Assembly (NCBI RefSeq): GCF_023638035.1
Contig: NZ_JAKRVX010000003.1
Span: forward strand, 1-64,000
Source: Natronocalculus amylovorans
GTDB lineage: Archaea > Halobacteriota > Halobacteria > Halobacteriales > Haloferacaceae
DNA length: 64,000 nucleotides
Direction of reading: 5' to 3'
Every line of letters begins with the position of its first letter. Within the stretch, counting starts at the first letter, position 1. The notes beneath the pieces are model-generated. The model saw only the letters and a program-made list of their open reading frames with translations, was not told the DNA's origin and did no database searches. Both the position numbers and the translations under genes were made by a program. Shown here one piece after another: positions 7,373 through 44,718 of the stretch.

Positions 7373-8389
7373 TCATAAGAGAAACCCATTTTTAAACGGG
7401 TCTGTGGGGTCGAGAACAAATGTGTGTACACCAGTAATGTACGCACTGCCTTCGATCGTCGGAATAACCGCATCGTATCCACCATATGTTGTTTCCGTGT
7501 AGCTTCCGGTAAACGTGGAGCCGACAATGCTTTCGACGGTAAACGGCTCAGTGGGTGCGATCGTCTCATCCTCATGTCCAAGCGCCAGCCGGCCGCTCAC
7601 ACCGGTTCCGGTCGGACAGCGATCGATCTCTCCATCAGCAAATACACAGATGTTTCGGCTATCAGCAGCTCCGTTTGCGGGGCCGGTGAAGATCACACCA
7701 TACAGAAATGAGAGGTCACCCTCATACGGATGGATAATCTCACAATCAGCGGCGACTGCGGCTTTGATTTTTCGTCCCACATCAATTAATGATGCAGCGT
7801 CCGCGCCCGTTAATCCAACACCGGCATCCGTAGCCTGACAGTATGCGTAAAATGCGCCGCCGAATGCAATATCATACTGGAGTTCACCAATTCCGGGAAC
7901 GGTCACGGTTCGATCGCGAGCGTAGACAAACGATGGCACATTAGTGAACGCGACACGAGAGACGCGATCACCATCGTCGATCGGCTGTGCGGTCACAATC
8001 CCTGCCGGGGTTTCGATCCGAAGTTCCTCGGCTTTGTTCTCAACAAGATTGCTCTCTGCGAGAATCGCACCAAGCGCGATAATGCCATGCCCACACATTG
8101 TGCTGTAGCCTTCATTGTGCGTAAACAGGACACCAATATCGGCGTCATCCACGGTAGGTTCGACGAGAATTGCGCCGTACATATCGGCGTGCCCACGAGG
8201 TTCGTACATCAACGCTTGTCGATACCTATCCAGTTCGCGCTGCATATACTGGCGCTTCTCAAGAATTGTCTCTCCCTCGATCGGCGGCAGTCCATCAGTC
8301 ACGATCCGGAGCGGTTCGCCACCCGTATGCGCATCAATTGTCTGAATCTGAGTCCAGCCCGCAGGAGGAGAGATGTCGATCGGTGTCAT
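7373..8389 (-). CDS. proline racemase family: probable trans-3-hydroxy-L-proline dehydratase
   Basis: 338 residues of the proline racemase superfamily. The first catalytic cysteine is C99 in M-C-G-H-G-I-I-A-L-G. The second half carries D-R-C-P-T-G-T-G: at the position where racemases and epimerases have the second catalytic Cys (S-P-C-G-T-G), this protein has T260. In the family a Cys/Thr pair is typical of trans-3-hydroxy-L-proline dehydratase, whereas Cys/Cys enzymes are proline racemase or 4-hydroxyproline epimerase. So dehydration of trans-3-hydroxy-L-proline to a pyrroline carboxylate is the best inference. Single gene, convergent with the XRE-CBS gene. Confidence 0.8.
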   Translation of the reverse strand: MTPIDISPPAGWTQIQTIDAHTGGEPLRIVTDGLPPIEGETILEKRQYMQRELDRYRQALMYEPRGHADMYGAILVEPTVDDADIGVLFTHNEGYSTMCGHGIIALGAILAESNLVENKAEELRIETPAGIVTAQPIDDGDRVSRVAFTNVPSFVYARDRTVTVPGIGELQYDIAFGGAFYAYCQATDAGVGLTGADAASLIDVGRKIKAAVAADCEIIHPYEGDLSFLYGVIFTGPANGAADSRNICVFADGEIDRCPTGTGVSGRLALGHEDETIAPTEPFTVESIVGSTFTGSYTETTYGGYDAVIPTIEGSAYITGVHTFVLDPTDPFKNGFLL

Positions 8390-41069: not shown

Positions 41070-41495
41070 ATGGTTGCGTACGATTCGATACTAATCTACG
41101 ATGGTGAGTGTCCATACTGTTCGATCGCGGCACGAGCGCTGAAACGACTGGACAATATCGGTTCGATATCGTGGTACGATGACGCTGCGCAATCATTCCT
41201 TACAGCCCAATTTGATGAGCCACCGTTTGCGATGGTACTTGTCGATCGATCCAGAAACCGTGTCTATGCCGGTCGATCGGCTGCAAAAGAGCTTGCTGAG
41301 AGAGCGGGGACCCCCTCTCTTGTAGGCTCGCTGGTTCGGCGCAACTACGATCGGATTGCCTCTGTAGTCGGTACTGCAAGCAACCGTGGCCGCGATCCGG
41401 ATGATGTCCACGAGATTTATCAGCTCCGTACGGATGCAAGAACGCAATTCGACCAGCTTGCGACGAATGCTGCAGAACCACCCGAGACACTCTAA
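41070..41495 (+). CDS. DCC-family (DUF393) thiol protein
   Basis: 141 residues. The DCC motif D11-G-E-C14-P-Y-C17 sits near the N-terminus in a thioredoxin-like fold (I-L-I-Y-D-G-E-C). Predicted thiol-disulfide oxidoreductase of unknown substrate. Complete. Its 3' end faces the structured RNA candidate on the opposite strand, about 25 bp beyond its stop. Confidence 0.87.
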   Translation: MVAYDSILIYDGECPYCSIAARALKRLDNIGSISWYDDAAQSFLTAQFDEPPFAMVLVDRSRNRVYAGRSAAKELAERAGTPSLVGSLVRRNYDRIASVVGTASNRGRDPDDVHEIYQLRTDARTQFDQLATNAAEPPETL

Positions 41496-41519
41496 GGAGC
41501 ACTATCGCTCAGAAGTATT

Positions 41520-41735
41520 GAGAACAGCTGTCCGGCCAAAATAGTAGCCAGACAGCCGTGTACCCAGCCGACCCGGGCAAAGTCGGCCGAGCGAACCCAA
41601 CGATCCGGGCAAGGTCATTGGGTATACTGTAGCGAGCGCCCGGGCAGAACGCTCGGCTACAGTTGCCGGATTGTCAGAGGCACCCCGGCGTATACAATGG
41701 GTGCCCGCAGCGTATTTAATTCACCCGTTGACATC
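41520..41735 (-). ncRNA. candidate structured RNA with three repeated-loop hairpins
   Basis: Non-coding interval between the DCC gene and an HTH gene, with five consecutive hairpins: 41527-41556, 41567-41587, 41595-41623, 41627-41662 and 41679-41705. Hairpins two, three and four have unrelated stems but the same loop, read on the minus strand as YYYTGCCCGGR (CTTTGCCCGGG counting a closing pair, CCTTGCCCGGA, TTCTGCCCGGG). The strand is suggested by pairing: in hairpins one and three, C-A mismatches on the plus strand become U-G wobbles on the minus strand. A minus-strand TATA box (TATATAAA, 41757-41764) would start the RNA near 41732. The ends are approximate. Not a tRNA, and I see no SRP or RNase P features. 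Confidence 0.5.
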
Positions 41736-41756
41736 TGGACCATCAATACATACTAA

Positions 41757-41764
41757 TTTATATA
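41757..41764 (-). promoter_or_regulatory. TATA box, candidate promoter of the structured RNA
   Basis: TATATAAA on the minus strand, preceded by an A-rich BRE-like stretch (AAAAAC). It is about 25 nt upstream of the predicted 5' end. A second TATATAAA lies further upstream on the same strand at about 41774-41781. Confidence 0.4.
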
Positions 41765-41835: not shown

Positions 41836-42618
41836 ATGACAGACACGGGCCCTAGAGATCTATTATCACTTATTGTCCGGCGGGGAGACGTGTTGCGCAC
41901 AATTGATTCGCCCGGAATGGATAAACGTGACATCGTTTCGCAGTTGAACGTCTCACGCTCCACCGTTGACCGTGCCGTACGCGAACTGGAAAGTGCGGAA
42001 CTTATCGAACGCACTGACAATGTTTTCCGCCGCACACTTGCCGGAGAACTAGCTTTGGATGCGTACGAAACGTTCGAAGAACAGCTATCAGCTATCTCTG
42101 CTTCCTGCTCCGCACTTAGACCGCTCCCACCAGAAACCGAAATCGACTCTGCGTTGCTAGTTGATGCGGACGTCATCTCTGCAACGATTCATGAGCCTCA
42201 CCAACCGATCGCAAAACTGTGTGAACTATGTGAGTCTGCTCGTTGGGTCCATCTCGTGCTTCCAGCCGTATTTCCACAAATACTTGATTCAATTGTTGAC
42301 GCTGCTCAAAGTGAACAACTCAGAGCCGATCTTGTAATTACTCAACCAGTTCTTCAACGGTTGCTCTCGACCGACAAATCAAAACTGACAACCCTTACTG
42401 AGTCCGAGTATGTGACAATTCGACAAACAGAACTGTCACAACAGTACGTTCCGCTCATCATTGAAAATGACTCCCGGACGATCGGTGGACTACTTATTGT
42501 CGAGACAAACGGTGCGAGTGCGCTCATTTTGAACGAAGATCCGGATGCAGTCACAAGGGTCTCTAATAAACTAAGAAAGTATCTCGAAAGCGCAGAGCCA
42601 ATTAAGAGCCACCACTGA
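41836..42618 (+). CDS. winged-helix HTH transcriptional regulator
   Basis: 260 residues. The N-terminal winged helix (about 15-75) has the recognition helix V-S-R-S-T-V-D-R-A-V-R-E-L. The remaining 180 residues form a sensor-like domain (I-S-A-T-I-H-E-P-H-Q-P, V-H-L-V-L-P-A-V, then I-G-G-L-L-I-V-E-T near 210) of the kind common in archaeal HTH regulators; ligand unknown. CGATCG is sparse here (two copies in 0.8 kb). Leaderless. It is divergent from the structured RNA candidate, so it may control that RNA or itself. Confidence 0.85.
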   Translation: MTDTGPRDLLSLIVRRGDVLRTIDSPGMDKRDIVSQLNVSRSTVDRAVRELESAELIERTDNVFRRTLAGELALDAYETFEEQLSAISASCSALRPLPPETEIDSALLVDADVISATIHEPHQPIAKLCELCESARWVHLVLPAVFPQILDSIVDAAQSEQLRADLVITQPVLQRLLSTDKSKLTTLTESEYVTIRQTELSQQYVPLIIENDSRTIGGLLIVETNGASALILNEDPDAVTRVSNKLRKYLESAEPIKSHH

Positions 42619-44644: not shown

Positions 44645-44718
44645 GGGCTGGTAGCTCAGTCAGGGAGAGCGACGGACTCTTAATCCGTCGGTCGCGTGTT
44701 CAAATCGCGCCCAGCCCG
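44645..44718 (+). tRNA. tRNA-Lys (anticodon CTT)
   Basis: Acceptor GGGCTGG pairs with CCAGCCC at 44711-44717, discriminator G. D-arm with AGCTCAGTCAGGGAGAGC. The anticodon stem ACGGA/TCCGT closes the loop CTCTTAA, so the anticodon is CTT (Lys). T-arm GCGTG-TTCAAAT-CGCGC with one G-U pair. No intron; CCA not encoded. A TATA-like TTTTAGTA is about 30 bp upstream. Confidence 0.96.

Follow-up and report, generated by a model that had tools for sequence, protein, structure and literature searches.

The locus raises two questions, namely whether a hairpin-rich, non-coding stretch in Natronocalculus amylovorans represents a structured RNA and, if so, what this RNA might act on. The stretch lies within the window, which here means the 64,000 nucleotides that were analysed (contig NZ_JAKRVX010000003.1, assembly GCF_023638035.1, positions 1 to 64,000). 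An earlier note, made from the sequence alone, had described three hairpins with unrelated stems and one shared loop on the minus strand, preceded by a TATA box, and had drawn an analogy to protein-titrating RNAs such as CsrB/RsmZ. To determine whether the structure exceeds chance, both strands of positions 41500-41760 were folded and compared with shuffled sequences. The minus strand gave a minimum free energy of -117.8 kcal/mol and a z-score of -5.4, while the plus strand revealed a z-score of only -2.7. The three hairpins with the loop YY-UGCCCGG-R and the minus-strand TATA box were recovered. The observation of the earlier note is therefore confirmed, though with one correction. The minimum-energy fold pairs GGGUGCC with GGCACCC, which would be the hairpin at the 5' end of the RNA, but this hairpin is not conserved. 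The conserved 5' hairpin is another one, formed by GCCGG and CCGGC, and its loop GUGCCUCUGACA, which the note did not see, is almost invariant and the most conserved part of the whole element. Moreover, the number of three UGCCC hairpins is specific to this organism and its kin, since relatives possess one to three of them.

Features of the putative RNA gene and its surroundings (positions refer to the window unless stated otherwise)
Position	Strand	Feature	Support
41714-41724	-	BRE/TATA-like promoter element GTGAATTAAAT	Conserved columns (GTGAnGTAAAG) at fixed distance from the 5' hairpin in 29 relatives
41719-41714	-	TATA box TTAAAT	
41690-41693	-	Predicted transcription start region, inferred from a distance of about 24-27 nt after the TATA centre	Fixed promoter-to-hairpin spacing; no transcript data
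41706-41680 (approximately)	-	GGGUGCC/GGCACCC hairpin of the minimum-energy fold	Not conserved
41665-41689	-	Conserved 5' hairpin; GCCGG at 41689-41685, CCGGC at 41669-41665	Near-invariant in relatives; compensatory GCTGG/CCAGC stem in a Haloferax paralogue (locus L185)
41672-41683	-	Seed loop GUGCCUCUGACA, exact complement of nt 2-13 of rosR mRNA	Conservation in relatives; complement at the rosR start
41631-41657	-	UGCCC hairpin 1 (loop UC-UGCCCGG)	Model R2 match, 27.2 bits; stem covariation
41596-41622	-	UGCCC hairpin 2 (loop CU-UGCCCGG)	Model R2 match, 29.9 bits
41564-41590	-	UGCCC hairpin 3 (loop UU-UGCCCGG)	Model R2 match, 30.5 bits
41523-41559	-	3' terminal hairpin (GGCUAC...GGCC type), likely end of the RNA	Predicted fold; a similar hairpin ends the RNA in Halohasta and Halonotius
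41836-42618	+	Divergent neighbour, winged-helix regulator with HVO_A0261_N and FilR1_middle domains	Pfam
41070-41495	+	Convergent neighbour, DCC1-like thiol-disulfide oxidoreductase	Pfam
44645-44718	+	tRNA gene	Only Rfam hit in the window
Outside the window, contig C6 of the organism's genome (G000), 7578-7925	-	rosR	

A search of the stretch against Rfam 15 gave no match above the gathering score and none even at E<=5. By contrast, a DNA search of relatives detected similar sequences in many haloarchaeal genera, among them Haloferax, Halogeometricum, Halohasta, Halonotius, Haloquadratum, Natrialba, Halocatena and Halostella. Lining these sequences up on GTGCCTCTGAC revealed the layout of an intergenic element of approximately 175-180 nt in this organism. 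The BRE/TATA element is followed by a fixed gap, the 5' hairpin GCCGG-GGUGCCUCUGACAA-CCGGC, one to three hairpins presenting UGCCC and often a terminator-like hairpin. The fixed spacing between promoter and hairpin shows the direction of transcription, and a 5' end would be expected 1-8 nt before GCCGGGGTGCCTCTGACA. Since the neighbouring genes differ by lineage, the RNA is an independent gene. Genes that look like thioredoxin, thioredoxin reductase or DCC1-like oxidoreductases often lie beside the RNA in different lineages (loci L077, L090, L114, L086, L213-L215 and the window), but of these only the DCC1-like gene of the window was checked by Pfam and, because the neighbours change by lineage, this theme was not used as evidence.

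To determine the distribution of the element, two covariance models were applied to 391 genomes of the class. Model R1, comprising the promoter and the 5' hairpin, matched 132 genomes at E<=0.1, whereas model R3, comprising the 5' hairpin and the first UGCCC hairpin, matched 162 genomes belonging to 55 of 86 genera at E<=0.01, the weakest of these matches being doubtful. Strong hits fall in families f1, f4, f5, f6, f7 and f14, while hits in family f12 (loci L216, L217 and L219) were judged false. Bacterial matches obtained in a pattern scan are due to chance, as those loci lack the UGCCC hairpins. Some Haloferax genomes contain four or more matches in separate places. In the Haloferax genomes G138, G336, G281, G301, G231 and G249 (loci L180-L194), several separate copies with different promoters and neighbours were found, some of which have altered seeds (GTGCCTCTGAAGAC, GTGCCTCTGTGTT).

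The stems of the UGCCC hairpins are under selection for pairing. In 112 distinct related RNAs, 140 UGCCC sites were tested without choosing for pairing. In one fixed register (loop NN-UGCCC-GR), the five innermost stem positions pair at 66-79% each, compared to about 41% at UGCCC sites elsewhere in the same loci, and five of five pairs were present in 42% against 0.9%. On average, 4.32 of 6 positions pair, compared to 3.12 (sd 0.09) when the 3' arms were shuffled. In a set of 25 non-redundant hairpins, all eight pairs show changes on both sides and 95% of the cells pair, while sliding the partner reduced this value to 24-46%. These hairpins were chosen for inner pairs, but the three outermost pairs, which were not part of that choice, still pair in 84-88%. 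The stem of the 5' hairpin hardly varies and thus gives little covariation.

Repeated hairpins with freely varying stems, one presented loop and a copy number of one to three are what might be expected of an RNA that sequesters an RNA-binding protein. As to the ALTERNATIVES, titration predicts that the hairpin also occurs on target mRNAs, but a search of the own genome did not reveal any other significant hairpin of this type. The three hairpins of the locus have E-values of 9e-4 to 8e-3, the next one 1.7. The loops contain UGCCC and not the GGA/ANGGA of CsrB/RsmZ, many relatives have only one UGCCC hairpin and the most conserved loop is a different sequence with an exact antisense target (see below). 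A CsrB-like titration is therefore not supported and we regard it as unlikely. The interpretation of the earlier note is thus partly supported. A structured minus-strand RNA without match in Rfam, with covarying stems, conserved loops, a variable number of hairpins and its own promoter could be corroborated, but not the analogy to protein titration. Pairing of the loops with 16S or 23S rRNA was also considered, but their complementarity did not exceed that of shuffled sequences.

To identify a possible target, the complement of the seed, TGTCAGAGGCAC, was searched in six genomes. Besides the RNA itself, all six genomes contain an exact copy at the same gene, where A+TGTCAGAGGCAC forms the start codon and the first codons, ATG TCA GAG GCA C. 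An exact match of 12 nt is expected about 0.4 times per genome, yet it was found each time at the start codon of this gene. The gene encodes RosR (116 aa; hsRosR 6qfd, E 1.4e-41). On the RNA level, the complement UGUCAGAGGCAC coincides with AUG UCA GAG GCA C. The start of rosR was then read in 79 genomes, while in two more no start was found. Of 52 RNA-positive genomes, 51 have the exact sequence, and the remaining one (G275) has GCGC, which still pairs by G-U. Of 27 genomes without a model hit, 16 are exact and 11 show one to five changes (Fisher P 1.4e-5). Within genus g6, the RNA-positive genomes G151 and G361 possess the exact start, whereas G032 and G052, which have neither the RNA nor any seed, show five and three changes, respectively. 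It should be considered that the species are related and that the P values overstate independence.

Thirteen of the 16 model-negative genomes with an exact rosR start hold the seed 12-mer somewhere other than in rosR. Of those looked at, several are RNA-like. In G015, G008, G004 and G051, the seed lies in a predicted large loop closed by GGCGGAC/GTCCGCC or its compensated forms. Loci L377, L382, L390 and L391 have stems of this type with a C-rich 3' side, possibly another branch of the same system. Four genomes of genus g13, probably Halorubrum as inferred here, share a different conserved element that was not matched by the models and consists of CGTGTGCCTCTGACA, a following GC hairpin and GGCTTT (L378, L380, L395 and L397 in G056, G165, G037 and G107, respectively). 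In G078, the seed is accompanied by a UGCCC hairpin and a T-run. On the other hand, some exact copies are start codons of other genes. Other genes or frames whose start is exactly ATGTCAGAGGCAC were found at L272 (G000:C12:253991-254002), L280 and L273. They are not conserved between genomes but may be extra targets. Among 26 model-negative genomes, seed and exact start occurred together in 13, seed and changed start in two, no seed and exact start in three, and no seed and changed start in eight (P 0.004), though any exact 12-mer was counted as a seed, not only those shown to sit in an RNA. Hence, genomes with a changed rosR start mostly have no seed at all (8 of 10).

It is conceivable that the complementarity is incidental, the rosR start being conserved for initiation and the loop for another partner. 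This would be in line with the exact starts in model-negative genomes, three of which (G063, G080 and G088) have no exact seed elsewhere. G088 even contains two rosR paralogues (L368 and L386), both with the exact 13-nt start. However, over the 52 RNA-positive genomes, codons 2-4 are TCA in 52, GAG in 52 and GCA in 51, although conserved residues downstream use their commonest codon in only 72% on average. Codons ending with A are generally favoured at these 5' ends, at codons 5-6 as well, which explains TCA and GCA in part but not the invariant GAG. Codon 5 always begins with C whether it encodes Gln, His or Arg, as the 13th paired base requires. Together with the single conserved gene, the position at its start codon, and the loss of the RNA along with changes of the target within a genus, this makes an incidental match unlikely. 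A TATA box begins 29-30 nt before the ATG in 50 of 52 genomes, and the rosR mRNA is thus almost certainly leaderless. In most genomes, a conserved GTGACATTT-like element was detected just before the rosR ATG (e.g. L292, L303 and L321), perhaps an operator for autoregulation.

The best reading is that of a trans-encoded base-pairing RNA, whose 5' hairpin presents the seed to the extreme 5' end of the leaderless rosR mRNA (AUGUCAGAGGCAC). Pairing over 12-13 nt would cover the start codon and should stop ribosomes from binding, thereby lowering RosR. We hold this explanation with fairly good confidence. The analysis establishes the RNA family, its promoter, its structure and the exact complementarity of seed and target conserved together, whereas transcription in this organism, duplex formation in the cell, the sign of regulation and the role of the UGCCC loops are inferred. 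The duplex of the seed with the own rosR start has a calculated energy of -24.0 kcal/mol, but the predicted fold half-pairs the ends of the seed loop, and in this organism the rosR start itself can fold. On the other hand, pairing might stabilise or activate rosR mRNA, or mainly allow rosR mRNA to remove the RNA (sponge). Archaeal sRNAs that stabilise mRNAs are known, such as sRNA154 of Methanosarcina mazei (cited in PMC13286277). These possibilities rest on the same complementarity, but as a duplex over the start codon of a leaderless mRNA should hinder initiation, they are considered unlikely.

The UGCCC hairpins are probably second-contact or stabilising modules. In this organism, each loop, whose UGCCC pentamer is fully unpaired in the predicted fold, can form six pairs with CGGGCA at about +31 to +36 of rosR (-12.3 kcal/mol). 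GGGCA occurs in +13 to +60 of rosR in 19 of 52 RNA-positive genomes, compared to 1 of 27 model-negative ones (P 0.001; shuffled expectation 5.6%). The one model-negative genome is G078, which has a seed RNA. However, the site overlaps a conserved Gly-Ile and the genomes are related, so this contact is suggestive only. In the most far-reaching view, which we consider about as likely as not, a class-wide archaeal antisense system would have one dominant conserved target. The start codon of leaderless rosR mRNA would be occluded by an almost invariant seed loop carried by several differently built RNAs (canonical, Haloferax paralogues, Halorubrum-type, GGCGGAC-stem type), and the UGCCC hairpins would provide a second, kissing contact within rosR.

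Among known systems, OxyS-fhlA of E. coli is closest. There, too, seeds are borne by loops, one over the ribosome entry site and possibly a second inside the coding region, and the target is a regulator. The RNA described here is archaeal, its target is leaderless so that the seed covers the AUG itself, the number of second-type hairpins varies and there is no sequence relation. SHOxi of Haloferax volcanii (PMC12482152, PMC9426492) is likewise a haloarchaeal sRNA linked to redox control, but it is 254 nt long, located on pHV3 and destabilises malic enzyme mRNA, while the present RNA is class-wide and has its conserved complement in rosR. Haloferax sRNA132 (PMC6560208) and other sRNAs of the H. 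volcanii deletion set (PMC3956466) are also intergenic with their own genes. sRNA132 is confined to Haloferax. Conserved members of the set such as H225.2R (96 nt) could not be matched to this RNA, H. volcanii not being among the loci returned, and identity with one of them is not excluded. No paper describing an RNA against rosR was found. RosR acting on an RNA (hvo_1211s) has been reported, but this is the opposite direction. As published H. volcanii lists may contain the transcript under a number, the transcript may not be new, while the family, its architecture and its target appear to be.

Conserved archaeal sRNAs with a defined conserved target are rare. In one tested set, 22 of 27 H. 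volcanii sRNAs had no homologue (PMC3956466). Many haloarchaeal mRNAs are leaderless, and how an sRNA could act on an mRNA without a leader is an open question, for which target site, seed and natural loss cases are now named, so that it can be addressed by a few point mutations in laboratory haloarchaea. The pairing would also put a post-transcriptional layer on RosR, which has been reported as an oxidative-stress master regulator in Halobacterium (PMC4287449) and as needed for rod shape and motility in Haloferax (PMC13286277).
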